Source: an uncultured Bacteroidales bacterium (GTDB lineage: Bacteria; Bacteroidota; Bacteroidia; Bacteroidales; Paludibacteraceae). Taken from it: a stretch of DNA of 41,629 nucleotides. The stretch is taken from positions 1-41,629 of the forward strand of contig CACXYM010000023.1 of assembly GCA_902771935.1 (NCBI GenBank). The letters are read 5' to 3'. The notes beneath the pieces were generated by a model. The model made no database searches, had not been told where the DNA came from, and saw nothing but the letters and a program-made list of their open reading frames with translations. Of this stretch, positions 12,359-29,246 are shown one piece after another. Position numbers and translations under genes: made by a program. How positions within the stretch are numbered: the first letter of the stretch is position 1; each line of letters begins with the position of its first letter.

Positions 12359-14185
12359 TTAGCGAACTAAAATCTTCTTGGTGTGCCATGTATCATCGAT
12401 ATAGGCTTTGAGGAAATAGATTCCGGTAGCGAGCGGCAGCGTGGCTTTGCTCACTTCAATCGTGTTAATATCGCCGTCCAACACAGCAATCAGTTTGCCG
12501 GTGATATCAAGCAAATAAATGGTAGTCGGACCATGCGGGATAGCCTCTAAGTCAGACAAGTCATTGGCATCAAACGGGTTGGGAATGAAGTCCTCATCCA
12601 CACCTTGGTCTTGAATCTGGCTCTCGTCGCAAGTCGGCATCGTGCTGAATTCCACTATCGTGCGCACGAGCATATCGTTAAGGTGTTCCACTTTAAGCGT
12701 GTCGGTAGTAGGTTGTAAGTGCTTATTACCGATACCGGAGTCATCCGTAAGGAAGAAGGAAGTTCCGTTTGTTGCCAAAGCCAGCGAACGCATCAGCAAC
12801 TCGCCGCTTTCGTCCAATCCGCTACATACGACCGGAACAATCCGCACACCTTGTGCCGCTGCATTCAGAATCTGCTCATGCAGCAAAGCCAACGTCTCTC
12901 CATCCTTATGGCACGGCGCATCCAGTACCAAGAAAGCAATACGAGCACGAGCATCAGCATCCCAGCCTGCACTATTCAAAGCCGCCATCAACGCCTCTGG
13001 AATAGCTTCCGGGAAGTCTCCACCACCACTCGCATACTGCTTGTCAATAAATTCCTGCGTCGTCTTGATATTATCCGTCAAGCGCGAAAGACGGGTCAGA
13101 TACACATCACCATGATCACGGTAAACCACCGCTCCCGTGCGTATAGCCAAACCACCTGTCGCATCTTTCGCACGAGCAATCACGTCGCGCATCTCCGCCT
13201 GCAGATAATGAAGCTCATCCCCCATCGAACCTGTTGCATCAAAGACAAAGACTACATCCACAGCCTCTGAAGCGCCACATTCCTCGTCAAGCACGATAGT
13301 ATTGAGACCTTCGGACCATAGTTTGGCCGGAACAGTCTGTCTGTTAACACGAATGCGTAGATTATCGGCTTGTTGTTGCCCTACCAGATTAGCCCATAGT
13401 TCTGCCTTGCCGGTGTTGTCTGTCATGGCTTGGAAAAGGGAATTTCCCTTAGCATCAACCAAAGTAACTTGTTGGGAAACAATAGGATAACCTTTTTTGT
13501 TGGTTACTTGAACCGTATAACGTTGCTCCGGCAAGATCTTCCAGTCCGCAATATATTTCTTATGCGTATCGCCAATCACCTTCGTCCAGAAATACCATTT
13601 CGCGAAGTCATTCACCTCTCCGGCTGTCAGACTTCCCGCTTTAGCATTATTAGCCTCTCCACCAACAAACGGTCTCATCTCTGAACGTCCGTCCGCAGGC
13701 ATCATCTCCAGCTCCGGTGCCTCTTCAACCTTCATGCCTGCACCCAACAAAGCAGGAGACGCATCGTCTCGGTGGTAAACTCTTCCGTGTCCCTTACCCT
13801 CAAACGAATACACATCTTTATCATAGTCTCTGTACGACTTATCTTCCTTGGGCGTCAGCTTGAAGATATATGGCGAAGCCTGCTTTAGCAATTTATCTGC
13901 CTTCACAACCATCGAGTCATATCCGCTGCAACTAATCTGCAACGACTTAAAATCTGCCAGCAGACCATTCCTCAAAAGCACACGTCCGTCCCACGATGTG
14001 CGATAAGTCTCCTTACCGATTTGCACCGTTGCCCCATTAAGCAGGGCATTGGATGTATCCATGACAAGAATAATAGTCTCCTGATTGTCAGCCACTTGTG
14101 CAATCGTTTTCTTTTTGCACGCGAGCACACTACCGGCACAAAGGAGTGCCACTAAGATAAGAGATAGTAGTTTCTTCATAGCCAT
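12359..14185 (-). CDS. Secreted von Willebrand factor A protein with T9SS C-terminal domain
   Basis: 608 residues. An N-terminal hydrophobic signal is followed by VLACKKK; cleavage after Ala or lipidation at Cys are both conceivable. Residues about 35-110 look like a carboxypeptidase-regulatory-like beta domain (NALLNGATVQIGKETYRTSWDGR). A second Ig-like segment lies near 220-290. A VWA domain follows from about residue 308, with the MIDAS start DATGSM (D316) and GGGDFPEAIPEAL. The tail, ending GIYFLKAYIDDTWHTKKILVR, is a canonical type A T9SS sorting domain. It is likely a surface metal-dependent adhesion or inter-alpha-inhibitor-like protein; the partner is unknown. ATG 14179 is an alternative start. 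Confidence 0.8.
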   Translation of the reverse strand: MAMKKLLSLILVALLCAGSVLACKKKTIAQVADNQETIILVMDTSNALLNGATVQIGKETYRTSWDGRVLLRNGLLADFKSLQISCSGYDSMVVKADKLLKQASPYIFKLTPKEDKSYRDYDKDVYSFEGKGHGRVYHRDDASPALLGAGMKVEEAPELEMMPADGRSEMRPFVGGEANNAKAGSLTAGEVNDFAKWYFWTKVIGDTHKKYIADWKILPEQRYTVQVTNKKGYPIVSQQVTLVDAKGNSLFQAMTDNTGKAELWANLVGQQQADNLRIRVNRQTVPAKLWSEGLNTIVLDEECGASEAVDVVFVFDATGSMGDELHYLQAEMRDVIARAKDATGGLAIRTGAVVYRDHGDVYLTRLSRLTDNIKTTQEFIDKQYASGGGDFPEAIPEALMAALNSAGWDADARARIAFLVLDAPCHKDGETLALLHEQILNAAAQGVRIVPVVCSGLDESGELLMRSLALATNGTSFFLTDDSGIGNKHLQPTTDTLKVEHLNDMLVRTIVEFSTMPTCDESQIQDQGVDEDFIPNPFDANDLSDLEAIPHGPTTIYLLDITGKLIAVLDGDINTIEVSKATLPLATGIYFLKAYIDDTWHTKKILVR

Positions 14186-14334: not shown

Positions 14335-15820
14335 ATGGCAACACAAGAAGAAACCTTTAAGAAATTGGTTGCTCACTGCAAGGAATACGGATTTGTATTT
14401 CCTTCGAGTGAGATTTATGATGGTCTGGGCGCAGTGTATGATTACGGTCAGAACGGCGTTGAGTTGAAGAATAACATCAAACGTTACTGGTGGGATTCGA
14501 TGACGTTGCTGCATGAGAATATTGTAGGTATTGATGCCGCAATTTTTATGCACCCGACGACATGGAAAGCTTCCGGCCACGTAGATGCTTTCAACGACCC
14601 GCTGATTGATAACCGCGACAGTAAGAAACGCTATCGTGCAGACGTACTTATTGAAGAGCAATTGTCGAAGATTGAAGATAAAATTACTAAGGAAGTCGAG
14701 AAAGCTGCCAAACGTTTTGGTGATAGTTTTGACGAGGCAATGTTCCGTCAGACCAATCCTCGTGTTTTGGAGCACCAAGAGCATTGGAATTCATTGCATG
14801 AGCGTTACTCAAAGGCAATGAATGCCAATGACTTGGCAGAGTTGAAACAGATTATCCTGGACGAGGAAATTGTTTGCCCGATTAGTGGTACACGCAACTG
14901 GACGGACGTAAGACAGTTCAACCTGATGTTCCAAACGGAGATGGGTTCTACGGCAGACGGCGCAATGAAGATTTATCTCCGTCCTGAGACGGCTCAAGGT
15001 ATTTTCGTTAACTACCTCAATGTACAGAAGACAGGCCGCATGAAGATTCCTTTCGGAATTGCCCAAATCGGTAAAGCATTCCGTAACGAGATTGTAGCCC
15101 GTCAGTTTATATTCCGTATGCGTGAGTTTGAGCAGAGAGTTCCGTCTCAAGTGGCATAAGGCACTGGGATTGGGTGACGAGAAATATCGTTTCCACGACC
15201 ATGAGAAATTAGCTCACTACGCCAATGCAGCGACCGATATTGAATTCCAGATGCCATTTGGTTTCAAGGAGGTTGAGGGTATTCATAGCCGTACGAACTT
15301 CGACTTGAGTCAGCACGCCAAGTATAGCGGTAAGAAGATTGAGTACTTTGACCCGGAACTGAACGAGAGTTATACCCCGTACGTTATCGAAACCAGTATC
15401 GGTGTGGATCGTATGTTCCTCAGTATCATGTGCGCAGCATATAAAGAAGAGCAGTTAGAAGGTGGTGAGTCACGCGTTGTGCTGCAATTACCGGCTGTTC
15501 TAGCTCCGGTTAAAGCTTGCGTCATGCCGCTCGTTAAGAAAGATGGTCTGCCCGAGAAAGCACGCGAGATTATGGACATGCTCAAGTTCGATTTCAAAAC
15601 GACTTACGACGAGAAAGACTCTATCGGTAAACGCTATCGTCGTCAGGATGCTATTGGTACACCGTTCTGCATCACGATTGACCACGATACACTGAATGAC
15701 AACTGCGTGACTGTGCGTTACCGCGACACGATGGCTCAAGACCGCGTGAAGATTGAAGACCTGCACGAGTTAATCTCGAAAGCAGTTGATATGAAACAAT
15801 TGCTTAGAAAGTTGGTTTAG
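14335..15820 (+). pseudogene. glyS: Glycyl-tRNA synthetase (dimeric, COG0423 type), broken by an internal deletion
   Basis: GlyRS charges tRNA-Gly. The first frame (14335-15159) covers the N-terminal catalytic half: [37 protein letters not shown] (motif 2 region) and FRMREFEQ. It then runs into RVPSQVA and a stop. From 15137 another frame continues [29 protein letters not shown] to the anticodon-binding C-terminus. Family members have about 20 residues between FEQ and this point (of the type MEMQFFV...WYEYWK), so about 59 bases are missing. That agrees with the frame change. The missing part belongs to the catalytic core. Loss of the only GlyRS would be lethal, so an assembly error or a second copy is likely. 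Confidence 0.88.
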
Positions 15821-15896: not shown

Positions 15897-18479
15897 TTAT
15901 TTAACGCGTCTTCCCATCATGTCGAATATTTGTCCGTCGCGGTGGATATAGATGTTTCCGTCGCGATAGAACTTAAACGAAGCCGAGTTTGCTGCATCTT
16001 GAAGCACTTGCTCAATATTTACTTTAGTGGGATCAATCTGAGGAAGATCAACCTTCTTACCGGTATAAATCTTGAGTTCGCCTGCTGCGAGTGTAACTTT
16101 AGCACCCGCTTTAGCACCCTGTTCATAGTAGTCGTACCATGTACCAGATGGTAAAGAAGCTTCCTTGCTATCACTCGGATGGAAGTTAGCTACTACATAA
16201 ACATCAGAACCCCATTGTACAGATTTGATGACAGTACCCGATATAGAAGCGGCTGTAGGATCACCCTCGAATACGTTCGGCATAATCTTCGTACGAAGTT
16301 GGATTGCCTGAGCGACTTTTGTATATTGTTCCATGCGTGCGTCGTTGTACAGGTATGGTTCATAACGAGGTTTCTTGTTGCAGCGATAACTATCATTGTA
16401 ACCATCCGGATGGTCAATATCGCTATTAATGGAGTGGTCATAACCTACTTCCTCAAACATCCACAACATGTGTGAGCCATTGAGTAGTACGTTCATTGCT
16501 ACACAAGCCGGAACACGTTTAACACGTACTTCCTCATTCTTCACATCACCGCTACCATACTTCATAGCTTTGTATTGCATGCGCTCTTCGTCGTGAGATT
16601 CGCAATATGAAACTTTACCATCCACATTAGCGTCCGTGAAAATACCTTTCGAGTAATAACCCATAGCGGCTTCCATATACGCATTGTTGGTGTTAATCCA
16701 GCACTGCATTCCAGCTTCAATCAATTTAGGCCAATCGCTCGGAGCATGTGTTCCCCAGTGCTCGAGAATCAGATAAGCGCCATAGGGCTCAATGGCTTTT
16801 GCGTAGTAGTCTTTGAGGTTAGCAACCGCATCGTCAGTTGGTCCACAGAGACCGTGACTCAAGTCAAGACGATAGCCATCAACTTTATACTCCTCAATCC
16901 AATATTTCATTGCATCAATAAACATCTGGTGAGCAGGTGCAAAATCGTGGTTCCAGTCCTCATAGAAGTTATCTCCATGAGGAGGCTTAACATTGAACCA
17001 GGGGTTTTGCGCCAAATCGGGTCCGTACGGATAGAGTTTATTCATTGGGTTATTGCCTGTAGCATGGTTGAATACCATATCCACGATGACAGCAATTCCG
17101 CGCTTGTGGCACTCGTCTACGAGATCCTTAAAATTAGTTTGGGAGCCATAGGCTTTATCCAGCGCCAAATAGAGGCAAGGTGAATAGCCCCAGTTGTAGT
17201 TACCATCAAACTCACTAAGCGGCATGAACTCGATTGCATTTACGCCGAGTTGCTCTAAGTAATCCAATCTGTTGATTACTCCATCGAATCCCCGATTATG
17301 CGTAAAGTCATACACCCACATCTCATAAATAACAAGGTTGTTTTTATTAGGACGTTTGAAATTCAACGTTGCATCGGACCACTCATACTTAGGTTTGTCG
17401 GTTTGAATTACCGTTACAAAACTTCCGTCAGCTTGTGATGGGTATGTTTTTAAGGTAGGGTCTTGTTTTTTGGGTTCATATTTATCATCTGGATGCAGTA
17501 CTTTCGTGGAGTAGAGGTCGCAAATACGTTTTACGACACCATCCGAACGAACCACTTCGTATTGGAAGGCATATTCTTTTTGTGGGGTTAGGTTGTTCAG
17601 CGTAATCCAGAAGTAGTTGCCATCTGTTTCATCTCGCAACAATTGGTACTTATTGTCAATGGTCCAACCGGTAAAGTCACCAACGATGAACACATGCTTA
17701 GCGGGCTCAGTTTTACTACCAGCATACATACACAAGGTCACTTTTTTCGAATCGTCCTTATCATAATAGATACCCAAACCAGGTACAGGTTTTGCTTCAA
17801 CAGCAGGCGTTGCTGCCACAAAAATCTTCAGCGAAGCATTCTTGATAACCTCTCCTTTAGTTGCAATTAATTCGAAAGTATTCTTGCCCATTGTGCTAAG
17901 CGTAGCCTTATAGGTCATTGAAGTTCCTGTTTCTGCTTTAACTTCTGTCCCGTTGTGTTTGAGGGTCAATAAAGCTTCCTCGGTAGCAGAAGCAGAGAGC
18001 GTGATTTCATCACCCTCGGAAGCTATAGATTGTTTATCAGCCGTTAAGGTAACAGCCAATCCAGCTTCGGCGAGATTGACAAAGATATCCTGCCCTGAAG
18101 CATCCTTACCTTCCTTTTCGCCATTAGGTCCGTCGTTAAAGACGAAGCAGAGTCGAGTAATGTTTGTAGAGGTGGTTGCTCCATAGTATTCATACATATT
18201 AGGAGTAAGCTTGAGTTCCCAATTACCATCTGCGTTCTTAGTCATTTTGTACTTAGCCTCACCGCCACGCCATGTGCCGGCTCCTTGCCAGTTATTATAA
18301 CCGGTATGCGCATAGCACTGAGTAGCGCCTTGCATACCTTTATTGCCTTCATTGGGATTAAAGATAATAGTTACCTCTCCTGTATATCCTTTTTGAAGGA
18401 TGGCGGGGATTGTTGTCACTTGAGCTATCAGAATATAACACGACATGCACAATAGTGCCAATAAACTAAATCTTTTCAT
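15897..18479 (-). CDS. Secreted GH13 alpha-amylase-family glycosidase with N-terminal Ig/CBM48-like domains
   Basis: 860 residues. A signal peptide comes first. Residues 25-135 form a beta domain with aromatic residues (GYNNWQGAGTWRGG), 140-222 an Ig-like domain, and 235-345 a CBM48/isoamylase-N-like domain (HVFIVGDFTGWTIDN). The GH13 barrel spans about 380-735, with DMVFNH (467-472), GYRLDL with nucleophile D539, ILEHW with acid/base E573, and ESHDEE with D630. A C-terminal beta domain follows. The tail IYIHRDGQIFDMMGRRVK is of the short T9SS-like type. It should hydrolyse or rearrange alpha-1,4 (or alpha-1,6) glucans outside the cell. It is the last gene of the five-gene secreted cluster. 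GH13 subfamily and bond preference are not decided. Confidence 0.88.
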   Translation of the reverse strand: MKRFSLLALLCMSCYILIAQVTTIPAILQKGYTGEVTIIFNPNEGNKGMQGATQCYAHTGYNNWQGAGTWRGGEAKYKMTKNADGNWELKLTPNMYEYYGATTSTNITRLCFVFNDGPNGEKEGKDASGQDIFVNLAEAGLAVTLTADKQSIASEGDEITLSASATEEALLTLKHNGTEVKAETGTSMTYKATLSTMGKNTFELIATKGEVIKNASLKIFVAATPAVEAKPVPGLGIYYDKDDSKKVTLCMYAGSKTEPAKHVFIVGDFTGWTIDNKYQLLRDETDGNYFWITLNNLTPQKEYAFQYEVVRSDGVVKRICDLYSTKVLHPDDKYEPKKQDPTLKTYPSQADGSFVTVIQTDKPKYEWSDATLNFKRPNKNNLVIYEMWVYDFTHNRGFDGVINRLDYLEQLGVNAIEFMPLSEFDGNYNWGYSPCLYLALDKAYGSQTNFKDLVDECHKRGIAVIVDMVFNHATGNNPMNKLYPYGPDLAQNPWFNVKPPHGDNFYEDWNHDFAPAHQMFIDAMKYWIEEYKVDGYRLDLSHGLCGPTDDAVANLKDYYAKAIEPYGAYLILEHWGTHAPSDWPKLIEAGMQCWINTNNAYMEAAMGYYSKGIFTDANVDGKVSYCESHDEERMQYKAMKYGSGDVKNEEVRVKRVPACVAMNVLLNGSHMLWMFEEVGYDHSINSDIDHPDGYNDSYRCNKKPRYEPYLYNDARMEQYTKVAQAIQLRTKIMPNVFEGDPTAASISGTVIKSVQWGSDVYVVANFHPSDSKEASLPSGTWYDYYEQGAKAGAKVTLAAGELKIYTGKKVDLPQIDPTKVNIEQVLQDAANSASFKFYRDGNIYIHRDGQIFDMMGRRVK

Positions 18480-18504
18480 ATAATCAGTTTTTATTTAATT
18501 GAGA

Positions 18505-18531
18505 GTAAAGGTGGTAATCAGCCACCTTTAC
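18505..18531 (-). repeat. Perfect hairpin between the modular starch-protein gene and the GH13 gene
   Basis: GTAAAGGTGG (18505-18514), loop TAATCAG, CCACCTTTAC (18522-18531). It has no T run after it on the minus strand. It is probably an mRNA-stabilising or partial-termination element inside the operon. Confidence 0.6.
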
Positions 18532-18541
18532 CCGATATAGA

Positions 18542-21500
18542 TTAGCGAATCAGTTGACCTTGAGCGCTGTAAACTTTACCATCACGCATGATGTAGAGTT
18601 TACCGTCAATCATCACTTTGCGCATTTCGTTAGCAGGAGCCAAGAGGTTCTCAATAGCACTTGGAGTTTCCTTCTTAGCGACATAGATATAGTCATTGCC
18701 ATACTCTAAGTTAACGTAGAAGTCGTACTTAGCTGTTTCGGAAACGATATACTTATTGTCCTTTATTTCGAACTTGTAGCTGCCTTCGTTCCATTTATCG
18801 ATAGCCCAACCTACTTCGTGGGTCTTATCATAGATTTGGAGCGTTTGACCAGCAGTCAAAGCTACGTCAAGAACCATGTACTCATTAGCCGTAGCAGGAT
18901 TAGGTTGTGCTTTGATAAATGTTGTACCATCAATCATCAAACCATATTCTTGCTCTGGCATTGGTCCAACAGAAACTGCATTAGCTGTAAGAGTTGTCAG
19001 TGCAGCATCGAGTGTGAAGGTTACGTTGTAAACGCCGGCTGCATCAATAGTCAGCGATTGGTTACCTTCAGCAGGTATCTGCCAGCCGGTCCAAACATGA
19101 CCTTCAACTACCTTGTACTCATATGCTCCAGAAGCAAGTGCCACATTCTCTTTAACGAGTTTGTAAGAACCATCAGCTTGCTTAGCCATATCGTTTTCAG
19201 TTGCCTCAGGATTCCACTCAACACCTACGAGAGCGGCTACACCCACGATGGTGTAAACTTTCTCAGGAGCAGGTCCAACTGGAGTTGCCTCAGCTGTCAA
19301 TGTTGCCAAATCTGCACTGAGTGTAAAGGTTACGTTGTAGGTACCGGCAGCGGTAATGGTGAGAGTTTGGTTAGCTCCACCTGTCGGGAGTTCCCAACCA
19401 CCCCATGCGTGACCTTCGATAACCTTATACTCATAGCCCTTAGCTTCGAGTGCTACATTCTCCTTAACGAGTTTGTAAGAACCATCAGCTTGCTTGGCCA
19501 TGTCATTATCAGTTGCCTCAGGATTCCACTCAACACCTACAAGAGCTGCTTCACCTACGATAGTGTAAACCTTCTCAGGTTCACCGCCCTTCTTATTGAA
19601 CACAGTAAAGATATAATCCTTACTCTCACATACAACGGTAACTTCGGTCTCCCTTGCTGTGAATGCGGAAAGATGGAATATTACACCTGCGCCTTGGATA
19701 TCATATGCACTTTCCGGTAACGAGAAGCTTGTGAATGCTGCACTCGGGAACGTGATATAGATACCAATCTCAGTTGCAAAGCCCGGTTTTTGGATATTAA
19801 CAACCTCAGTTGGTTTAGGATCGCCAACACAAACCTTGAATTGCTCTGCATAAGCAGCATCGGCAGAACCAAGCCATGGGAGATTATCCCAGTCGCAACC
19901 ACCAGCAGGCTCGTATGGAGTCCATTGACCCACAGAGACGCCTTCATCACCCCAAGCGGTAATCGTATAAGTCAAACCTACATGGTCGATCTTATCATCC
20001 TTAACACGGTTCCAAATAGTAGCTTCCCAATCTGGAGCAGCCACTTCACTTGCGAAACGTACAAAGATGATACTGTCTGCTTCGGCATTGATCTTAACAC
20101 TCAACGTGTCACCTTCACCTGCGAAGAACGGAGTCCATGCACCGGCTAAGTCTTCACCCCATACCCATGCAGCCATCTTTGCACTTGCTTCTGACCACAT
20201 GTTCGGTACAAGATTCAATGTCTCAACAATTACAGGTTTAACGTAGAAGTTACCAATCAGCTTATAGGTAACTTTATCACCTTCCTTGAAGTATACTACT
20301 TGTACAGCACCGGCATCTGCGAGCTTGAAGCAGATATTGTTATCTGCATCTGCGCTCAGACCTTCGGCCTTCTCGCTCAAGTTATCATAACCAAGAGCAG
20401 TTGCCCATGTACCATCAACAGTAACTTTCAGTTTATAGTCTACACCTGCTTTCAGGTTCAGTACTGTCGTATCAGCATCTGCATTGATGGCTGCAGGAGC
20501 CCATGCTTTGTCAGCGGTCAGACCTGCATCTACTACCAATGCACTGTCACCAGTGATGTAGTACTTGCCAGGTACAACCGGCTCGTATGGAGTCCATTGA
20601 CCTACAGAGACGCCTTCGTCACCCCATGCGGTGATGGTGTAAGTCAAACCTACATGGTCGATCTTATCATCCTTAACACGGTTCCAGATATTCGTGCCAG
20701 GTTCATCCCATGTCGGAGCTGCTACTGCTGAGTTGAAGCGTACAAAGATGATACTGTCTGCTTCCGCATTGATCTTAACACTCAACGTGTCACCTTCACC
20801 AGCAAAGAACGGAGTCCATGCACCGGCTAAGTCTTCACCCCATACCCATGCAGCCATCTTTGCACTTGCCTCTGACCACATGTTCGGTACAAGATTCAAT
20901 GTCTCAACAATTACAGGTTTAACGTAGAAGTTACCAATCAGCTTATAGGTAACTTTTTCACCTTCCTTGAAGTATACTACTTGTACAGCACCGGCTTCTG
21001 CGAGCTTGAAGCAGATATTGTTATCTGCATCTGCGCTCAGACCTTCGGCCGTCTCGCTCAATGCGTCAAAGCCAAGAGCGGTTGCCCATGTACCATCAAC
21101 GGTCACTTTCAGTTTGTATTCTACACCTGCTTTCAGGTTCAGAACGGTTGTGTCTGCGTCGGCCTTGATTGCTGCAGGAGCCCATGCTTTGTCTGATGCC
21201 AAACCTGCATCTACTACCAATGCGCTGTCACCTGTGATGTAGTACTTACCAGGTACTGGGATATCATCTTTTGAAGCGTACCACGTTCCTTCGTATTTGC
21301 CTTCGCCGTTTTTAGCGCCAGGAACGAAGTACGGTTTAGCAGCATCCCAAACGAGGTCTGCTGTTTGGTCTGTACCATTGTTGAAAATAGCGTTTACAAA
21401 GGTAGCAGGGAATCTATAAGCATAGATATCTTTTCCATTTACTTGGTCAGCCGTTTTGTACATTGCTTCGCCAGGCCATCCTTTATAAGCATCACCAGTA

Positions 21501-22498
21501 GCAGGCCAAACGAAAGCATTTACTTTAGTCCAGTCGAGCGTATTGACGAAGTAAAGGGTTTGGAGAGCAGGAGCCTCATCGCCAGTGCGATAGAGAGTCG
21601 GGAGAGCATAATTAGACGCTGTTTTGGGAGTATAAGCTCTGTAGTATTTATTAGTTCCAGAGGTATTGCAATACAACGTGTACTCATTTTCATCAGTACT
21701 AACAATTTCTACACCACTTGTAGTATAGTTAAGAGATAATGCAACTGGAGTAGCGCTTTGGGAAATTTTATTTTTTCCACACACCATGTACTTACCACTG
21801 GGCAGTTTGATAGAATAACCACCTTGCATAAGTTCTACTGTTACATAGTACTTATCTGTGGAGTTAATCTCAATTTCGCCTTCATCAATTGTCAGCGCGT
21901 CGGATGTAGCAGCCAAGTCACTACCAGTAACAGTAGCGTGTGCTTTGTTGTCCGCAAAGACGATTAGGTACTGTCCAGCCCAGTTGCCTGTTGTAGGCGC
22001 TTTAGTAAGAGCTGTGTAGGTTACTTTAGATGCGGGAGCAGTATAAGCGACATTAACAAACATATCGTTCGTTTTGTTGTCATCTCCTTCGTACTGCGCA
22101 CGTACAATAACACCAAGTTTTCCAATTTTAGGCAGGTCAGTGTCTGCTACATTGAAGAACTCTTTGATGTTCATTGAGATTGTGTACTTGCCTTTTGTTC
22201 CAGAATAAGTCATTTTCAACTTACTTGCGAGCGAGGCATAATCACCGTCACCATTGCACGAAGCCCAATCGGTTGAATAGCTTTTGCTGAGTGTTTGGCC
22301 GTCAGCAGCTACTAACCAAGCGTGGATAAAGCACGATGGTTCCCAATTAGCGAAATTGGTACCTGTGCCATCATACGTGAGAGTGACAGTTTGCGTTGGG
22401 TCAATAGGAGTCTTTGACGAGGTCAAAGTACCACCTTGAGCAGCCCAAGCCATTGTTACGGTTGCGAGAGCAACCAATAACGAAAGAAACTTTCTCAT
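18542..22498 (-). CDS. Secreted multimodular, non-catalytic starch-binding-like protein with two internal duplications
   Basis: 1318 residues; signal peptide to about residue 19. Residues 315-405 resemble CBM26-type starch-binding modules (VNAFVWPATGDAYKGWPGEAMY, FNNGTDQTADLVW). Residues 417-640 and 644-864 are two near-identical copies, each starting KYYITGDSALVVDAGL and ending GQWTPYEP. Residues 975-1078 and 1079-1181 are two copies of a smaller module (KVYTIVGxAALVGVEWNPEAT ... YEYKV) similar in pattern to pullulanase X25/SusE-F-like starch modules. Residues 1184-1273 match the N-terminal module of the 1219-residue amylase. The tail LYIMRDGKVYSAQGQLIR is the short T9SS-like type. I see no catalytic domain. 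Glycan-binding is inferred from modules and context. Confidence 0.75.
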   Translation of the reverse strand: MRKFLSLLVALATVTMAWAAQGGTLTSSKTPIDPTQTVTLTYDGTGTNFANWEPSCFIHAWLVAADGQTLSKSYSTDWASCNGDGDYASLASKLKMTYSGTKGKYTISMNIKEFFNVADTDLPKIGKLGVIVRAQYEGDDNKTNDMFVNVAYTAPASKVTYTALTKAPTTGNWAGQYLIVFADNKAHATVTGSDLAATSDALTIDEGEIEINSTDKYYVTVELMQGGYSIKLPSGKYMVCGKNKISQSATPVALSLNYTTSGVEIVSTDENEYTLYCNTSGTNKYYRAYTPKTASNYALPTLYRTGDEAPALQTLYFVNTLDWTKVNAFVWPATGDAYKGWPGEAMYKTADQVNGKDIYAYRFPATFVNAIFNNGTDQTADLVWDAAKPYFVPGAKNGEGKYEGTWYASKDDIPVPGKYYITGDSALVVDAGLASDKAWAPAAIKADADTTVLNLKAGVEYKLKVTVDGTWATALGFDALSETAEGLSADADNNICFKLAEAGAVQVVYFKEGEKVTYKLIGNFYVKPVIVETLNLVPNMWSEASAKMAAWVWGEDLAGAWTPFFAGEGDTLSVKINAEADSIIFVRFNSAVAAPTWDEPGTNIWNRVKDDKIDHVGLTYTITAWGDEGVSVGQWTPYEPVVPGKYYITGDSALVVDAGLTADKAWAPAAINADADTTVLNLKAGVDYKLKVTVDGTWATALGYDNLSEKAEGLSADADNNICFKLADAGAVQVVYFKEGDKVTYKLIGNFYVKPVIVETLNLVPNMWSEASAKMAAWVWGEDLAGAWTPFFAGEGDTLSVKINAEADSIIFVRFASEVAAPDWEATIWNRVKDDKIDHVGLTYTITAWGDEGVSVGQWTPYEPAGGCDWDNLPWLGSADAAYAEQFKVCVGDPKPTEVVNIQKPGFATEIGIYITFPSAAFTSFSLPESAYDIQGAGVIFHLSAFTARETEVTVVCESKDYIFTVFNKKGGEPEKVYTIVGEAALVGVEWNPEATDNDMAKQADGSYKLVKENVALEAKGYEYKVIEGHAWGGWELPTGGANQTLTITAAGTYNVTFTLSADLATLTAEATPVGPAPEKVYTIVGVAALVGVEWNPEATENDMAKQADGSYKLVKENVALASGAYEYKVVEGHVWTGWQIPAEGNQSLTIDAAGVYNVTFTLDAALTTLTANAVSVGPMPEQEYGLMIDGTTFIKAQPNPATANEYMVLDVALTAGQTLQIYDKTHEVGWAIDKWNEGSYKFEIKDNKYIVSETAKYDFYVNLEYGNDYIYVAKKETPSAIENLLAPANEMRKVMIDGKLYIMRDGKVYSAQGQLIR
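18956..19576 (-). repeat. Tandem duplication of a 104-codon module
   Basis: Two adjacent copies, 312 bp apart (19265-19576 and 18956-19264), encode the KVYTIVG...YEYKV modules of the 1318-residue protein. Confidence 0.85.
19907..21250 (-). repeat. Tandem duplication of a 227-codon module
   Basis: Copies at 20579-21250 and 19907-20569, offset 681 bp. The DNA is almost identical over long stretches; for example, the segments from 20191 and from 20872 run unbroken for tens of bases. This implies recent duplication or gene conversion. Confidence 0.9.
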
Positions 22499-22605
22499 AA
22501 TGATTAGATTTAATAAATTAAGTTAATTAGTTTTGTTTAAATATTGTTTATAAAACAAGTATTTACAAGGCTTTTCTCCCGATTAAGTCCTATTTCAGTT
22601 CCGAT

Positions 22606-22660
22606 GAGCAGCCATTGAGCAACCATTGAGCAACCATTGAGCAACCATTGAGCACCCATT
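22606..22660. repeat. 11-bp tandem repeat, 5 copies
   Basis: Five consecutive units of GAGCAACCATT (first unit GAGCAGCCATT, last GAGCACCCATT). It lies between the small secreted protein gene and the 1318-residue gene, about 25 nt below the former's stop codon. Confidence 0.95.
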
Positions 22661-22684
22661 GCTATCGGGAGGGCAAGTGGTACG

Positions 22685-23617
22685 TTATCGGATGAACTTT
22701 TTGCCGTTTTGGATAATGATTCCGTGGTAATCAGCATTAACTTTGCGTCCGAGAACGTCGAACATCGGCGCGTTGAGGTCAAGAGTAACGGTAACGTTTT
22801 GGATAGCAGTACCACTATTGCAGTTTTCACTTACAAGTGTTTTACCAGCGATCGGTTGTGTAGAAAGGATAACATCACTACCTTCTCTGTAGAGATAGAG
22901 AGTGTATGAACCAGGTCCAACATGCAGTTTTTCGTTGCCTGATGTAGTCATAGTAGCCTGAGTTGGTCCATCTACATACGAAGGAGCCATATACTGAACA
23001 CCCTGGACACCCTTTTGCTGGAAGATAACAAATAGGTAAGCGTTGTCTGATACATCAAGATGAGCTGTACCGCAGTTGAAGATATTGAAGCCACCTGCTT
23101 CGTTTTCAAGGTTACCACCGTCAATGTATCCTTTGTAGTACCAGTATGCGTCAGGTGTTGAGCCGCCACCTCCTTGGCCTCCACCGCCTTGGCCATCATA
23201 AACGGACCATTCGCACGTTGCGACACCTACAGTTGCTTCGGATTTGTCACCACACCAGTCGTTCTGTTCATCTGTCCAACCAGTAATTTTGCATAAGTCT
23301 TTGCCGGAAGTAAAATCTGTTTGATCCAAGGTTTTTCCCCAATAGCCTTCACGATTGCACCAAGTAGCGAAATCAGTGCAAGAAGGGCTTAAGCGTTTGA
23401 ACAACAGACCAGTCTGCCCATCCGGGATATCAGCTTTGAAGATGTGGCCGGATACCTGAGTCAACACAGCATCATTTTCCTCTGCTCCCCATGAATGGAT
23501 AATTAATTTAGCATCGTCTGTATCCCAAATGCCGTTGGCATCGAGATAAATTGTTTTACTAGACATCACTGCCATAGAACAAATTGTAGCAGCAACTAAG
23601 AAAAATAACTTTTTCAT
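22685..23617 (-). CDS. Small secreted carbohydrate-binding-like protein with T9SS-like tail
   Basis: 310 residues from the ATG at 23617; the upstream TTG would add two. A signal peptide (KKLFFLVAATICSMAVMSS) precedes a beta domain with TIYLDANGIWDTDDAKLIIHSWG, similar in style to Bacteroidota starch-binding modules. A glycine-rich linker (GGGGQGGGG) leads to a second beta domain. The tail APMFDVLGRKVNADYHGIIIQNGKKFIR is shared with the two upstream amylases. No catalytic motif is visible. It is the third gene of the amylolytic cluster, probably a surface glycan-binding accessory. Confidence 0.7.
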   Translation of the reverse strand: MKKLFFLVAATICSMAVMSSKTIYLDANGIWDTDDAKLIIHSWGAEENDAVLTQVSGHIFKADIPDGQTGLLFKRLSPSCTDFATWCNREGYWGKTLDQTDFTSGKDLCKITGWTDEQNDWCGDKSEATVGVATCEWSVYDGQGGGGQGGGGSTPDAYWYYKGYIDGGNLENEAGGFNIFNCGTAHLDVSDNAYLFVIFQQKGVQGVQYMAPSYVDGPTQATMTTSGNEKLHVGPGSYTLYLYREGSDVILSTQPIAGKTLVSENCNSGTAIQNVTVTLDLNAPMFDVLGRKVNADYHGIIIQNGKKFIR

Positions 23618-23671
23618 AAGCAATTAGATTTAATAAGTTAGTTATAGTTATAATATACAATATATAATATA

Positions 23672-25504
23672 TTATTGTAATATATATTTGTTTCCGTTTT
23701 GGATAACTATTCCGCGGTAGTTGGCATCAACTTGTTGTCCCATGATATTGAACATAGGTTCATTCGTGTCAAGCGATTGTTTGACAGAATGCGTTTGTTC
23801 AATATCGGATATTGGCATAGTGCCGGTGTAATACATTGCGTACTTGGAGCCTTTGACGGCTTGTTTGTAGCCCGACGGAGCTGCTTTGGAAGCAGACGAG
23901 CCGAGATAGAGAATCACCTTGCCGGTTTTGCCGGTAATCGTAGCTTCGTAGTAGCCGGATCCGGAAGTCTCGGAGACTTCACTTTCAGAGTGGATGCCCG
24001 CGCTACGACGTGCGGTAATCATTGCCTTGATGTCGGCTTTGTACTTATACCAATGCGGCCAAAATACGCACGGAATACCCGGCATCGAAAGCATATATGC
24101 GTTGCATTGCATAATCAGCTCCTTGTTATTGATCGAACTACCATCCTTTTTATTGCCGCAGTCGGCGTTGTTGATATCACCACGATTGAAGGTATCGTGG
24201 TTGTCCACGAAGTTAACCGCATACTTTTGGTAGTTTTTTCCACGCAAGCCCGGTTTAACCAGTTTGCTATAATCAGGGCTATCCTTTCCTATACCTTGCT
24301 GGTAAGCAGTATAGAAACTTGCGAAGTCAAAAGTCATCGTGTTCTTGCCGGCTTGGTCAATACGTGTTTTCAACGTATTAGCATCGCCATTCCAATACTC
24401 CATGACGGAAATATATGGTTTTGCCGCAGATACGTAGTCGTTGATATGCGACACGTGGTATCCGCCGCAGTAGTCGAATCGATAGCCATCATATCCGATT
24501 TCACCTTTGAGGAACTTGAGGTAGGCTTTACACATGGCTTGTACGTTGCTATTCTTATGATCCCAATCACGCGCAGAGCCGTAATTGCGATTAGACTCTT
24601 GTCCATCATCGGCGTTAGTTCCTACGTTATAGCCTTTACTTTTAGCCTCGTCGTCACTGGTAATCCATGAGCTTTGCGGTTGGAACTTACCATATGTACC
24701 GAAGTCTTGCTCTACAAAGTCATTCCAACTACTACTGTTAGCCGCATGGTTGATAACGACATCTGCCAAAACACGGGTACCACCGTTATGGAGCGCACTG
24801 ATGAGATTCTTCAGTCCTGCTTTCATACCCATCTTACTATTCTGATTGGGGTATTGTTTCGGCAGGTAACCCATATCATCGTTAGCCAAGCACGAAGGCG
24901 GAAGCCAAACGAGCTGGAAGTATTGGGAAATCTCTGAAGCCTGTGATTGCAAAGTAGACCATTGCGATCCTCCGTAAGTTGTATTGGAGTTAGAGCCCCA
25001 GTAGAAAGCCTGCAGCATCACGTCGGTACATTGTGCAGGAACGGCAGACGAGTAGTCACCACCCGGAGTGATTGGGTCCGAACCGCCACCACCAGGAGTG
25101 TCGCCGCAGTCGCCATCGGTACCGATATAGAGTTTGTCTGCTCCGTACTGTTTCTTCCACCAGAAGTTATAGCAACCATCCGCATTGCAAGTAGCATAAT
25201 CAGCAGCGACGGTGAAGTTACCTCCTCCGTCCACATCTCCACCCCTTTCAATCGTTTGCGGGAAGAAGAACTCATTGCAGCTTGCGTTGCAGAACTGCAC
25301 TTTGTCACCTTTTTTAACGGAAGCCGCGACATTCAACTGCGGGAGATTATCCGGAGACATTCCCGCATCCACAAAAGTGCCAACTTTATTATTGTTGATA
25401 TATAAGTCGTAGGGACCGTCCTGACACTCTGCACAAACCATTGCCGGCGTGGACAATAAAGCCACGCTCAGCAAGGTTAATATGAACATACCTATTTTCC
25501 TCAT
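23672..25504 (-). CDS. Secreted GH13 alpha-amylase with N-terminal Cys-rich module
   Basis: 610 residues. The signal peptide runs to about residue 25. Residues 27-133 form a Cys-rich module (CQDGPYDLYINNNKVGTF ... CYNFWWKKQYGADKLYIG) also found in the next amylase. A short Gly-rich linker follows. The GH13 barrel spans 160-505, with DVVINH (248-253), GYRFDY with nucleophile D344, VMEYW with E369, and FVDNHDT with D437. The core order (MLQAFYW, WLPPS, PGIPCVFWPHW, HSESE) resembles plant/archaeal-type GH13_6/7 alpha-amylases. C-terminal beta domain and the T9SS-like tail PMFNIMGQQVDANYRGIVIQNG follow. Expected role: endo-hydrolysis of starch outside the cell. It starts 13 nt below the preceding amylase gene. 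Confidence 0.92.
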   Translation of the reverse strand: MRKIGMFILTLLSVALLSTPAMVCAECQDGPYDLYINNNKVGTFVDAGMSPDNLPQLNVAASVKKGDKVQFCNASCNEFFFPQTIERGGDVDGGGNFTVAADYATCNADGCYNFWWKKQYGADKLYIGTDGDCGDTPGGGGSDPITPGGDYSSAVPAQCTDVMLQAFYWGSNSNTTYGGSQWSTLQSQASEISQYFQLVWLPPSCLANDDMGYLPKQYPNQNSKMGMKAGLKNLISALHNGGTRVLADVVINHAANSSSWNDFVEQDFGTYGKFQPQSSWITSDDEAKSKGYNVGTNADDGQESNRNYGSARDWDHKNSNVQAMCKAYLKFLKGEIGYDGYRFDYCGGYHVSHINDYVSAAKPYISVMEYWNGDANTLKTRIDQAGKNTMTFDFASFYTAYQQGIGKDSPDYSKLVKPGLRGKNYQKYAVNFVDNHDTFNRGDINNADCGNKKDGSSINNKELIMQCNAYMLSMPGIPCVFWPHWYKYKADIKAMITARRSAGIHSESEVSETSGSGYYEATITGKTGKVILYLGSSASKAAPSGYKQAVKGSKYAMYYTGTMPISDIEQTHSVKQSLDTNEPMFNIMGQQVDANYRGIVIQNGNKYILQ

Positions 25505-25517
25505 TGTTTGTTACTCC

Positions 25518-28500
25518 TTATTTTACTATAAGGTATTTATAACCATTTTGTATAACGATGCCTGTATAGGTTGCATCGACGCGTTGTCCGAGCACGTTAT
25601 ACATAGGTGCGTGCAGATCGAGTTGCGGTGCATCCTGTACATTGTAGATAGCCATACCCTCGCAGTCATGTGCTACTGCATTTTTGAGTTCGGCATCCCA
25701 TGTGAAGCAGGTGTTCTCGTCAACCAAGATGTCTTTTGATTGTACAGTACCGTTATTCCAAATGATATTAACAGTCTTGTATTGAGCATCGAAGGTGTGG
25801 AAGTATGCACCTTTGTCGTCCGTTTGAGTCAGTTTGGTTCCAGGCCAATCACCCAATAGTTTCGTTTCCGCACCATCTGTTGTCCAAGCGTACAAGTTCA
25901 CCACATTCCAGCTCGGCTCTTTGAACGATACTGTAATCGGACCTTGTTGCGGTTCTTTGTACGTATAAGTTGCCTTCACGATATTTGTTTTCTTGCTTCC
26001 TGCCACTGCCATTGCGCGTAACTCTGTATCAGTCTTGAAGTTAAGCTTCAGCGGATTAGAAGTAGAAGAAGCGGAAGATGTCGTTGGGTCAGTACCATTC
26101 GTTGTGTAGTAAATAGTCGGAGTCGTACCACTCGGAACACCAACTGCAGAAATGGTCACATCGATACCTTTGTCTTTATCTCTGAACTTCGTTGATTCAG
26201 GACTAATGAGCAAGTTAAAGCCTATCTCTGCTTGTGAGCAGTCTTCATCTAACACCTCGGAACCGAATTGCCATAAGTAGCAAACATCGCAGTCCGTTAC
26301 CAAGTCACCGGTTTGAACCCCGTTATCACCATTATTGAAGATGAAGCTCGGGTTCTTAGCAGCTGCCGGGAATTGATAGGTATACCAACCGTCCGCACCT
26401 GCATTTAGTCTCAAGCCCGGCCAACCACCGGTATTGGTACCTGTTCCCCAAGTGTGGATATAAACAACATCAGAACCCCAAGTATTATCTTTTCTGAAAC
26501 GAACGATAATAGGTGTCGTTTGCGGCTCTTGATACGTATAAGTAGCAGACATCACCGGAGAAGACTTTCCATTCATGACGGCGATTGCCTTTACAGTTGT
26601 TGTTTTGTTTATAGTGACTCCACCGGTATAAACGCTTGAAGATGTTGTTGGATCTGTGCCATCGGTAGTATAATAGATAACAGGCGATCCGGACAAAGCG
26701 GCCGCTTTCATAGTTACGGAGAGAGTAGCTGTTTTGAACTTCTGTGACGGAGTGATTGACAGACGCGGAGTCTCAGCATTATTGGCCTTATAATACATCG
26801 CGAACGGAACATCTGCACCATCTCCGCTCTTGTAAGCCAGTTGGAAGCCTTCGGGCACATCTTTAATGCCTTCCGGGCCAAGTAACAATCGGATCATACC
26901 ATTGGTTCCGGTGACAGTTACTTTGTAATAGCCGGAACCTGCAGATTCGGCTGAACATTCAGATTCAGAATGTACACCTGTCAACTGACGAGCCATAATC
27001 ATCTTATTAATTGCATCCTTATACTTCATCCAGTGAGGATAGAATACACAAGGAATACCGGGACGGGAAAGAATATAGGCGTTAGCAGCGAGTACGCGCC
27101 ATTTATTATAACTTTCCATAGATTTACCGCAACCGCCAATCTCGTCGTTATTTTCACGTCCGCCTTTGCAGCCGAAATACGTATCATGGCTATCAACGAA
27201 CGTTACAGCATAACGTCCGTCATTTGTTCCCTGGAGACCAGAGCCCACGCATTTGCCATAATCGCCGTCAGCGATACCCTGTATAGCGCAGTACTTATTG
27301 CTGAAGTCGAAGACGGTGGTGTTCCAGCCGCAGTCGTTGAGGTAGGACTTGATTTTGGACATATCTCCGTTCCAGTACTCGCAAACAGAGAAGTAGTTCT
27401 TAGACGCGGAGTTATACATGTTGATATATTTACCTTTGAAGCCCTGTGCATAGTCATAACGCCAACCGTCATAACCAATCACATTCTTCATCCACTTCAA
27501 GTAATCCTTCATCATATTTTGCACCTCGGTCTTCGAGTGTGCCCAGTCACGAGCAGAACCATAGTTGTCTTGACCGTTGTAACCGCCGTCATCTACGCCG
27601 GTAGCAGCGCCTTTACACGTCATGTCTTCACTCTGTCCATTAACCTCGTCCGTACTGCAAATCCAGGAAGGAAGCGGCTCATAGGTACCATAAGGGCTGA
27701 AATATTGAGGGAAGAAATCGCACCAAGAAGACATACAGCCTGCGTGGTTAATCACAATATCTGCCACAACCTTTGTATTTGCAGCATGCATACGATCAAT
27801 AAACTCAGTCAACTCAATCTTTGAGCCCCAAGCTGAGTTTTGGTTGCTGTACTGCGTCTGGTGATAACCCGTACCGCCTTCCGATTTGCCCGAAGGTGGT
27901 AACCAAACCATATCGAAGTACATGCCGATATCATTACTATTCTTCAGCAATGTGGACCATTTGGTATCGCCCAGTTTGGTTGAACCGCTGATTGTGACAT
28001 TACCCGGAGCCTCATCGTTATATGAATCATAATAGAATGCTTGCAGCATTACATCCGGACACCTCTCCGGAACAGACTTAGCATAGTCAGGACGAACCGG
28101 AATATCCGGAGTATCGTCACCAGTTACCTTCACGCAGATAGTACCATCAAACGTAATCTCCACATTAGCCTGCTTGTAAACCACAAACGTAACGTTGCCG
28201 TCGCCATCCCCAAGAATATTGGATGTGCTGCATTCTGAATTAAGTTCTGCATAGCCGTATGAAGACGTCCAGGTTCCGTCAGTTATCTTGAACTGATAGT
28301 TACCCATCGGCAGATTCGTATAGGACACTTTATTATCTACCAATTCGCAACCGTTAGGCTCCCAAGCCACTCCGCAGCACCATGCACTACCTTCAGTACC
28401 ATTACCGGCAATATAATATTTCTTAGTGGGGTCATAGGGAGTCGGGCAAGTACCATCGGTACCGATGTACAAAGCATCTGCGCCATACACTTTCTTCCAC

Positions 28501-29177
28501 CAGAAGTTATAGCAACCATCGACGCTGCAAGTAGCAGAAGCAGCCGCTATAGTGAAATTACCGCTTCCGTCCACGTCACCACCAGTTTCGATGTTTTGCG
28601 GGAAGAAGAATTGGTCACAACTGGTATTGCAGAACTCTACTTTATCGCCAGCCTTAATGCGAGCAGAGATATTGAGCTGAGGAGTTACGCCATCAGGAGC
28701 CATACCACCGTCAACGAATGTACCGGCAGAAACGCCGTTGATATAGAGGGCATAAGGACCGTCTTGGCAGTCTGCACCGGGATCATCGCCGCCACCGCCG
28801 GGGGTATAATCCTCACCAGAGCCACAACCGGTACCATTGCCAATGTAAAGCTGATCTGCTCCAAATTTCAACTTAATGTAGCAGTCGAAGCAACCGGTGT
28901 TTGTTGTAGAATACTCGGTAGAACTTGTTTTAGTAAAACCGGCAACAGTATAGGAGTCCAAGTCAACTGCCCAAGTGTCTCCTGTAGATTTGTTGCAAAG
29001 CGCAAATTTATCGCCCGCAGCGAAGGTTACCTTAGCTAGATACTGGTCGTAATCGCCTTCTTTACCTGTTGAAGTAGCTGCAAAATACTTGTTGCCATTA
29101 ACTAAAATACCATACTGTTGAGAAAAAGATGCCAAACAAAGGCACATGAAACACAAAAATACTGAAATCCTTTTCAT
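25518..29177 (-). CDS. Large multimodular secreted GH13 alpha-amylase
   Basis: 1219 residues. Signal peptide to about 20; module 22-118 (YGILVNGNKYF); Cys-rich module 137-244 as in the 610-residue amylase; module 251-352 (YYIAGNGTEGSAWCCGVAWEP), X25/SusE-like in pattern. The GH13 barrel spans about 372-735, with DIVINH (473-478), GWRYDY with D575, VCEYW with E600 and FVDSHDT with D665. It is followed by two alternations of a chitobiase/FN3-associated domain (803-884, 985-1075; IYYTTDGTDPTTSS) and a CBM26-like module (888-975, 1079-1165; WPGLRLN, FNNGDNG). The tail is PMYNVLGQRVDATYTGIVIQNG. It is first in the operon, with a good promoter. It is likely the main raw-starch-binding endo-amylase. 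Confidence 0.92.
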   Translation of the reverse strand: MKRISVFLCFMCLCLASFSQQYGILVNGNKYFAATSTGKEGDYDQYLAKVTFAAGDKFALCNKSTGDTWAVDLDSYTVAGFTKTSSTEYSTTNTGCFDCYIKLKFGADQLYIGNGTGCGSGEDYTPGGGGDDPGADCQDGPYALYINGVSAGTFVDGGMAPDGVTPQLNISARIKAGDKVEFCNTSCDQFFFPQNIETGGDVDGSGNFTIAAASATCSVDGCYNFWWKKVYGADALYIGTDGTCPTPYDPTKKYYIAGNGTEGSAWCCGVAWEPNGCELVDNKVSYTNLPMGNYQFKITDGTWTSSYGYAELNSECSTSNILGDGDGNVTFVVYKQANVEITFDGTICVKVTGDDTPDIPVRPDYAKSVPERCPDVMLQAFYYDSYNDEAPGNVTISGSTKLGDTKWSTLLKNSNDIGMYFDMVWLPPSGKSEGGTGYHQTQYSNQNSAWGSKIELTEFIDRMHAANTKVVADIVINHAGCMSSWCDFFPQYFSPYGTYEPLPSWICSTDEVNGQSEDMTCKGAATGVDDGGYNGQDNYGSARDWAHSKTEVQNMMKDYLKWMKNVIGYDGWRYDYAQGFKGKYINMYNSASKNYFSVCEYWNGDMSKIKSYLNDCGWNTTVFDFSNKYCAIQGIADGDYGKCVGSGLQGTNDGRYAVTFVDSHDTYFGCKGGRENNDEIGGCGKSMESYNKWRVLAANAYILSRPGIPCVFYPHWMKYKDAINKMIMARQLTGVHSESECSAESAGSGYYKVTVTGTNGMIRLLLGPEGIKDVPEGFQLAYKSGDGADVPFAMYYKANNAETPRLSITPSQKFKTATLSVTMKAAALSGSPVIYYTTDGTDPTTSSSVYTGGVTINKTTTVKAIAVMNGKSSPVMSATYTYQEPQTTPIIVRFRKDNTWGSDVVYIHTWGTGTNTGGWPGLRLNAGADGWYTYQFPAAAKNPSFIFNNGDNGVQTGDLVTDCDVCYLWQFGSEVLDEDCSQAEIGFNLLISPESTKFRDKDKGIDVTISAVGVPSGTTPTIYYTTNGTDPTTSSASSTSNPLKLNFKTDTELRAMAVAGSKKTNIVKATYTYKEPQQGPITVSFKEPSWNVVNLYAWTTDGAETKLLGDWPGTKLTQTDDKGAYFHTFDAQYKTVNIIWNNGTVQSKDILVDENTCFTWDAELKNAVAHDCEGMAIYNVQDAPQLDLHAPMYNVLGQRVDATYTGIVIQNGYKYLIVK

Positions 29178-29214: not shown

Positions 29215-29246
29215 CAAAGATACAAAACTTTTTTCGTTCGTGCAAG
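29215..29246 (-). promoter_or_regulatory. Promoter of the amylolytic operon
   Basis: Minus strand: CTTG at 29246-29243, 20 nt, TATCTTTG at 29222-29215; the leader to the ATG is about 30 nt. The -33 box directly follows the T tail of the trmO terminator. I see no separate promoter of this quality before the other four amylolytic genes. Confidence 0.8.

Follow-up and report, generated by a model that had tools for sequence, protein, structure and literature searches.

A SusCD-unlinked operon of predicted exported amylases with short, conserved C-terminal tails in an uncultured Bacteroidales lineage

Five Linked Genes and Their Promoter

The window analyzed here is a whole contig of 41.6 kb from an uncultured lineage of Bacteroidales found mainly in the gut. 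Between positions 15897 and 29177, its minus strand carries five linked genes in one direction whose products, judged from Pfam matches and from reading of the translations, are three enzymes of family GH13 and two non-catalytic proteins, all predicted to be exported. From the upstream end these are the GH13 alpha-amylases P0004 (25518..29177, 1219 residues) and P0003 (23672..25504, 610 residues), the non-catalytic P0005 (22685..23617, 310 residues), the likely binder P0002 (18542..22498, 1318 residues), and P0001 (15897..18479, 860 residues), a GH13 protein with a CBM48. The coordinates and strand of the original prediction were right apart from one start codon, that of P0005, for which the ATG at 23617 is preferred over the TTG at 23623. 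Most of the neighboring genes are named from reading of their translations.

The first gene, P0004, is preceded by a Bacteroidetes-type promoter, CTTG-N20-TATCTTTG (29215..29246, minus strand), with a -7 box that matches perfectly, a single mismatch at -33 and 37 nt to the ATG. The same rule finds no site with up to two mismatches in the four internal gaps, in keeping with the single good promoter originally predicted. Of 16 loci compared across the genus, 13 (all but L058, L064, and L065) have such a site, with no more than one mismatch, 150 nt or less from the first GH13 gene; the same is true of 1 of 44 internal genes (Fisher p = 1e-9). Two further features were recognized by eye on the minus strand: a hairpin followed by TTTATTT below P0001 (15851..15876), a possible terminator that is not among the calls of the terminator scan, and a 10-bp hairpin in the gap between P0002 and P0001 (18505..18531), possibly an attenuation or processing site. 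Hairpins seen by eye in two internal gaps could partially uncouple the operon. The scan for sigma-70 promoters and terminators gave no excess over shuffled sequences (27 vs. 27.5 and 7 vs. 11.4, respectively), and the Rfam search returned two tRNAs and nothing else. At the level of sequence, these data support an operon, unlinked to SusCD and recurring across the genus, for exported multimodular amylases and likely binders; the 20 genus loci used were chosen through a match to P0005 or its tail.

Protein Modules and Catalytic Residues

The assignment of three enzymes to GH13 was confirmed by Pfam, and the operon is predicted to encode starch-active members of this family. The claim that their catalytic residues are complete stands for P0003, which aligns with barley alpha-amylase across the D, E, and D motifs and has the catalytic residues, and for P0001, whose D539, E573, and D630 are shared without exception by the 11 sequences aligned; those of P0004 were identified by reading only. 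P0004 contains two CBM26 and two Fn3_assoc stretches, together with N-terminal modules common to P0003 and P0002, the N-terminal module of P0003 being 72% identical to one of its own. In P0001 the CBM48 precedes the GH13 domain, and its likeness to BoGH13ASus of GH13_47, a subfamily with the order CBM98-CBM48-GH13, spans these two (299 bits across 549 residues of structure 8DGE, which is identical in sequence to 8DL2).

That the other two proteins are non-catalytic agrees with the Pfam scan, which finds in P0002 two X25 stretches and one CBM26, beside duplicated modules, and in P0005 no family at E ≤ 0.01. The N-terminal module of P0005 has a weak likeness (18-19%) to modules of P0002 and some orthologues have a module of a different type in its place. 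When solved structures were searched by profile, antibody chains were the best match of P0005 (E = 0.23), and the module common to P0005 and P0002 gave a weak match to Ruminococcus bromii Amy16 (E = 0.026). All five proteins have a Sec signal peptide by a rule devised for this analysis, and all five are without a lipobox. The Pfam scan of the five detected no SusE/SusF-type binding proteins (PF14292/PF16411). Cohesin and dockerin are likewise absent from its results, and the surface or released assembly once proposed for the five is unsupported.

Conserved C-Terminal Tails

Each of the five proteins ends in a conserved tail of about 26-35 residues, for which alignment distinguishes two forms (all coordinates on the minus strand): form II, of about 26 residues, in P0001 (15900..15992) and P0002 (18545..18637), and form I in P0005 (22688..22792), P0003 (23675-23779), and P0004 (25521-25625). 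The original prediction of T9SS-like tails was therefore correct as to conserved tails on all five, but these belong to no known T9SS family. TIGR04183 matches none of 14 form II and 17 form I rows when tails alone are scanned (E ≤ 1), the type C T9SS domain matches none of the same 31 tails, and PF18962 is absent from the five operon proteins, results by which we rejected the idea that the tails are ordinary type A CTDs. All 18 C-termini chosen as classical-looking do match TIGR04183, and the same contig encodes one type A protein at 12359-14185.

In its own genome the form II profile has 77 matches at E ≤ 1, including the 14 rows of its model, against 11 for TIGR04183. At E ≤ 0.01 there are 71, and 59 of the 59 examined end 0-4 residues before the stop. 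Among carriers with a visible N-terminus, 54 of 56 have a signal peptide and none a lipobox, the corresponding figures for 124 background ORFs being 51 and 11. In a set of 375 predicted proteins, all 63 profile hits are C-terminal, and the reversed set gives none. The form I profile adds nothing new in this genome, its four strong matches being rows of its own model. Rows for the models of type A, form I, and form II were picked by eye and are included in the counts, contributing 18 of the 53, 18 of the 30, and 14 of the 178 proteins classified, respectively. Form II tails also occur on unrelated proteins (GH16, LRR/BspA-type, F5/8 type C), and in 28 tailed proteins the stretch 30-90 residues upstream of the motif has only 0.07 bits per position; this lack of upstream conservation is the informative part of the analysis, for the 1.34-bit figure is partly inflated by choosing and anchoring on the motif. 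Among other genera of the order, 1 of 98 genomes has a form II match, a single one.

With identical sequences removed, the 87 homologues of P0001 divide into 37 with type A, 35 with form II, 8 with neither, and 7 that are cut. For the other proteins, assigned in relatives by best BLAST hits that may mix paralogues, the counts are 29 form II and 6 form I (P0003-like, n = 35); 32 form II, 9 form I, and 1 with none (P0004-like, n = 42); 15, 4, and 1 in the same order (P0005-like, n = 20); and 11 form II, 1 type A, 3 with none, and 2 cut (P0002-like, n = 17). The P0001 tree places form II within type A and accounts for its distribution by 5 changes, against a mean of 26.9 after shuffling. The two have in common a short Y-x-x-x-G-x-x-V-like motif. 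In a comparison with the type A domain, the form II profile obtains a score of 11.0 for the final 30 columns (up to 12.5 in 60 column shuffles) and of 20.1 for the preceding part (up to 13.8 in shuffles). We accordingly rejected the notion that form II corresponds to the final ~22 residues of the type A domain, as the likeness falls in its middle instead. This counts against a T9SS role of the tails, because two papers locate the signal within the final 22 residues (PMC5445135, PMC11285876); the second also calls the Ig-like architecture essential (PMC11285876).

Of the T9SS core, the genome encodes SprA at 2648 bits (found in 35 of 37 relatives) and PorU at 1048 bits. As candidate T9SS cargo, the five proteins thus combine Sec signal peptides with these core components in the same genome, and their tails stay below the curated TIGR04183 cut-off for type A cargo. 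The tails look like a lineage-specific form of export signal, and the tailed proteins would depend on T9SS.

SusC and SusD in the Genome and in Relatives

Neither SusC (TIGR04056) nor SusD (PF07980) has a match anywhere on the 41.6-kb contig, which upholds the statement that the cluster lacks such a pair. The wider label of Sus-less holds at the locus but not genome-wide, since the search of other contigs proposed with the original prediction found SusC and SusD matches above cut-off, five of each, forming five pairs. One of them, on contig C34, is dextran-type: the best match of its SusC is 8AA4, of the dextran utilisome, and a cut gene nearby is 83% identical to the GH66 protein of a relative. 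Contigs with SusC/D over cut-off have no GH13 match, C34 being just 9.7 kb long. The possibility of a SusCD pair hidden beyond the contig end was considered: the operon is flanked by 12.5 kb and 15.9 kb of other genes, and the available flanks, with a median of about 10 kb and some much shorter, contain no SusC/D in 38 of 40 clade loci. Of what characterizes a Sus-type PUL, linked SusCD, lipoproteins, and SusE/F are missing here and starch-active GH13 enzymes are present by sequence.

P0001 is present in 55 of 61 genomes of the genus, its own included. Among the named loci, the best 80 of 569 with some genomes repeated, SusC/D lie near P0001 relatives at 2 of the 40 clade loci (in one case more than 6 kb away) versus 16 of the 39 outgroup loci (p = 1.3e-4), as detected by BLAST to the proteins of our genome (>150 aligned residues, >60 bits), which distant ones may escape; weaker or shorter hits in L121 and L149 were left uncounted. 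Another operon-type neighbor accompanies P0001 relatives in 30 of 40 clade loci versus 2 of 39 outgroup loci, and outgroup homologues mostly carry the classical type A T9SS domain. The original prediction took adjacent susCD or lipobox-bearing versions in related genomes as evidence against a layout unlike Sus. The layout is unlinked in 38 of 40 clade loci, but such versions do exist: SusC/D in the 16 outgroup loci, P0001-SusC-SusD in consecutive order in clade member L088, and N-termini reading as lipoproteins in L150, L155, and clade member L092, the last without a tail. Since SusC/D occur in 16 of 39 outgroup but only 2 of 40 clade loci, and since wider relatives have SusC/D or lipoprotein N-termini, the SusCD-unlinked layout is, on this comparative evidence, a derived rearrangement of Sus-type parts.

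Proposed Mechanism and Alternative Explanations

In functional terms, the question becomes: How would such proteins reach starch? The best explanation overall, which we consider probable, is that of an amylolytic export operon with T9SS-routing tails. One promoter would drive the five genes, the predicted signal peptides would direct all products to Sec export, and the short tails would route them across the outer membrane via T9SS, with subsequent anchoring by PorU-type processing or release. Outside the cell, to judge from the protein families, starch would be bound by CBM26, X25, and other modules and cleaved by three GH13 enzymes, two of them alpha-amylases of plant type and the third of BoGH13ASus type; family membership suggests P0002 as a binder, and P0005 may be one from its company alone. 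Maltooligosaccharides would be taken up by transporters encoded elsewhere, perhaps among the five SusCD pairs, one of which is dextran-type, and their breakdown may be completed by unlinked GH13 enzymes. In evolution, the BoGH13ASus-type enzyme would have left a SusCD neighborhood and swapped its classical type A CTD for a short tail, and the amylases and binders would have joined it. The more specific proposal, that forms I and II are undescribed T9SS sorting signals of ~26-35 residues which keep one type A motif, have lost the C-terminal half, and, within a single genus, take the place of the Ig-like domain in much of the exported proteome, the products of a starch operon without linked SusCD among them, stands for us at even odds. 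Judged by titles and the openings of abstracts, none of the papers found was recognized as describing such a tail or operon, which does not prove their absence from print.

An explanation that overlaps with this one, and differs by requiring SusCD, is a Bacteroides-like outer-membrane starch machine with its SusCD encoded elsewhere and the exported proteins gathered round it. We regard it as possible but rather doubtful: the five SusCD pairs elsewhere in the genome, the 16 of 39 outgroup loci with SusC/D beside a P0001 homologue, and the consecutive genes of L088 speak for it, but the sole alpha-glucan pair identified is dextran-type, and GH13 matches are absent from the SusC/D contigs over cut-off, including the short C34.

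Two further readings, both improbable in our judgment, deny the tails a role in export. They are short and exactly C-terminal, as would suit docking peptides of an amylosome-like surface scaffold, and P0002 matches R. bromii Amy16 and 7RPY, a chain named cohesin-containing protein; yet the 7RPY match overlaps the X25 modules with no Pfam cohesin, form II sits on GH16, LRR/BspA-type, and F5/8 type C proteins that are unrelated, and in P0001 relatives it occupies the place of the type A T9SS domain. Alternatively, the tails could be structural end caps kept through descent and recombination, a view that draws on the shortness of the one motif common to form II and type A and is hard to reconcile with carriers that have no detectable upstream similarity and are almost solely signal-peptide proteins without a lipobox. 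Were the T9SS-routing tails of the preferred explanation indeed cargo signals, current annotation would miss most such proteins (11 TIGR04183 vs. 77 form II matches).

Comparison with Known Systems

On contig C34, the dextran-type locus resembles the dextran utilisome PUL (Bt3087-3090) in a SusC closest to 8AA4, a SusE, and a GH66-like gene; it is unlinked to the operon and predicted to serve alpha-1,6-glucan. The proteins of the R. bromii amylosome have a counterpart in P0002, which matches Amy16 (9QF9) and the R. bromii X25 structure 7RPY, but the five proteins have C-terminal tails instead of cohesin or dockerin. Amylases of Flavobacterium johnsoniae are exported by T9SS, according to one report (PMC11885536), as would be those described here, which differ in that five genes are linked, likely binders are included, and the tails are short and not recognized by TIGR04183. 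CTDs of types B and C have been described beside type A (PMC10202324). With the type A CTD (TIGR04183/PF18962) the tails share a motif and the same position in the same enzyme family, whereas they span ~26-35 residues against a 72-position model. If they work via T9SS, they raise the question of how little of this domain the translocon needs, for which dozens of natural examples and tails exchanged among relatives provide the material.

The closest parallel to P0001 lies in the Sus of Bacteroides ovatus and B. thetaiotaomicron, given its match to BoGH13ASus (= BoSusG), the CBM48 before GH13, and the same presumed substrate. According to one paper (PMC11633381), sus loci encode BoSusG and SusG, which are attached by a lipid anchor, while in the present operon a C-terminal tail replaces the lipid and there is no linked SusCD or SusE/F. 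Related amylases offer a natural comparison between two ways of being placed outside a Bacteroidota cell, by a lipid anchor from a Sus locus or by a C-terminal tail from a SusCD-free operon.

Operon organization and transcription

The source genome (2.06 Mb, 95% complete, 46 contigs) includes the window as the entire contig C23, on which the genes for P0004, P0003, P0005, P0002 and P0001 follow each other in this order from 29177 down to 15897 of the minus strand, separated by 13, 54, 186 and 62 bp and preceded by a TrmO-like gene (named by reading) on the same strand. The original prediction described this operon rightly as encoding three GH13 enzymes, P0004, P0003 and P0001, plus two non-catalytic proteins. 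The nearest solved structures to P0003 and P0004 are plant α-amylases; for P0001 they are 8XX9 (332 bits) and Bacteroides ovatus BoGH13ASus (8DGE, 299 bits). P0002 has CBM26 and X25 modules. P0005 gave no hit to a Pfam family at E≤0.01; the module at its N-terminus shows weak similarity to modules of P0002 and is of another type in some orthologues. Module copies of P0002 at 20025–21005 share 93% DNA identity, with a further copy at 19082–19579 (83%), a recent duplication. Elsewhere in the window, a glycyl-tRNA synthetase (by reading) is split on the plus strand (14335–15820) into two overlapping frames, 14335–15159 and 15122–15820, which points to either a misassembly or a genuine lesion in what is normally an essential gene.

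A Bacteroidetes-type promoter lies upstream of P0004, and the four internal gaps contain no promoter site at ≤2 mismatches. Of 16 loci of the genus, 13 have a site with ≤1 mismatch within 150 nt upstream of their first GH13 gene, versus 1 of 44 internal genes (p 1e-9). Co-transcription from one promoter, as originally proposed, is thus favoured by the distribution of sites, but hairpins seen by eye in two internal gaps leave room for uneven expression across the operon. By eye, the P0005–P0002 gap also contains, at 22560–22684, a TGCTCAATGGT-like unit repeated about four times and the inverted pair CTCCCGAT / ATCGGGAG. In one relative, the operon is separated from the TrmO-like gene by an ORF that reads as AraC-type (locus L064, 2315–4036), a candidate regulator.

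Separation from SusCD

Of 61 genomes sampled from the genus, own genome counted, 55 encode P0001. Among the best 80 of its 569 matches, the nearest named relative is the uncultured Bacteroidales MAG RUG437 (85% identity) and many further close ones are titled Paludibacteraceae, the sources being rumen, gut and faeces. In a tree of P0001 homologues (81 rows), the window lies within a clade of 41 rows (support 100). Of 40 clade loci, two have SusC or SusD in the examined flanks (one more than 6 kb off), versus 16 of 39 outgroup loci (p 1.3e-4); a further operon-type gene is among the neighbours in 30 of 40 and 2 of 39, respectively. The SusCD-unlinked layout is confirmed and is read as derived, even if adjacent SusCD genes do exist in relatives and lipoprotein-like starts are read in loci L150 and L155 and in the clade member L092. 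The clade member L088 (2–11107) has a P0002-like gene (start cut), P0001, SusC and SusD consecutively, the first two with type A tails (weak for the P0002-like protein), and may represent an intermediate layout. The simplest history is that the P0001-type enzyme departed from a SusCD neighbourhood.

The term 'Sus-less' was too broad for the genome, in which profile searches found five SusD (PF07980) matches, all over cut-off, and 13 SusC (TIGR04056) matches, five over cut-off, making five SusCD pairs on contigs C34, C6, C7, C8 and C9. The 15 GH13 (PF00128) matches lie on C1, C3, C4, C5, C16, C21 and C23, a disjoint set, and therefore no contig has both, although C34 spans just 9.7 kb. The C34 pair is dextran-type: its SusC best matches 8AA4 (1052 bits), the dextran utilisome according to PMC7618045, and the gene truncated by the contig end shares 83% identity over 361 residues with a GH66 protein of a relative, in which GH97 comes next. 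Four unlinked GH13 proteins have lipoprotein-like starts, by reading in the stretches examined. The genome has a fourth tailed amylase, a lone secreted GH13-CBM26 protein on C5 (L021, 6312–8882) that ends in form II.

Short C-terminal tails

All five proteins end in conserved tails: form I (roughly P-M-Y-N-x-L-G-x-x-V ... Y-x-G-I-V-I-Q-N-G-x-K-Y) on P0003, P0004 and P0005, and form II (roughly K-x-x-x-[DN]-G-x-L-Y-I-x-R-x-G-x-x-Y-x-x-x-G-x-x-V) on P0001 and P0002. They had been called T9SS-like, yet the rows scanned, 14 of form II and 17 of form I, all fail to match the classical type A domain (TIGR04183) at E≤1. This domain has 11 matches in the genome at E≤0.01, nine over cut-off; one classical type A protein (12359–14185, minus strand, 36 bits) lies in the window.

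The form I profile gives nine genomic matches at E≤1, the four strong ones being model rows and three lying within the operon. Form II gives 77 (14 being rows of the model itself), and all 59 examined of the 71 at E≤0.01 end within four residues of the stop. Among carriers with a visible N-terminus, 54 of 56 have a signal peptide by our own rule (51 of 124 background ORFs) and none a lipobox (11 of 124). Upstream of the last ~26 residues, 28 carriers non-homologous to the five show no detectable similarity (0.07 bits/position). Seven of ten scanned carriers have a Pfam family (GH13, GH16, F5/8 type C and four LRR/BspA-type), so that the tail is not starch-specific; another carrier in the window, outside the operon at 9113–10339 (minus strand), is YD-repeat-like. 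Across 99 genomes of the order (one per genus, own counted), form II at E≤1e-6 recurs in one other, as a single match, and has no match in a sister genus within the family.

Form II/form I counts are 29/6 for P0003-like, 32/9 for P0004-like and 15/4 for P0005-like proteins. The 87 non-identical P0001 homologues comprise 37 with type A, 35 with form II, eight with neither and seven cut; the 18 C-termini picked by eye as classical-looking (15 outside the clade, three inside) all match TIGR04183. On the tree, form II is clustered (5 changes versus a shuffled mean of 26.9); its clade is nested among type A and itself contains three type A rows. PorU is found in the genome, as is SprA. Of 37 relatives (36 from the genus, one from the family), 35 also have SprA, the other two genomes being 54% and 76% complete. 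In the simplest reading, the short tails would perform the job of the type A domain. Against such an equivalent role, the similarity of form II is to the central part of the type A domain rather than to its end, while the T9SS signal has been narrowed to the last 22 residues (PMC5445135, PMC11285876). Either the translocon in this genus recognizes another motif, or the tail serves some other role.

Overall assessment

The suggested surface or released assembly of the five proteins is unsupported. The tail family that the operon revealed is the more surprising part of the finding; the operon itself is a variation on a kind already known.
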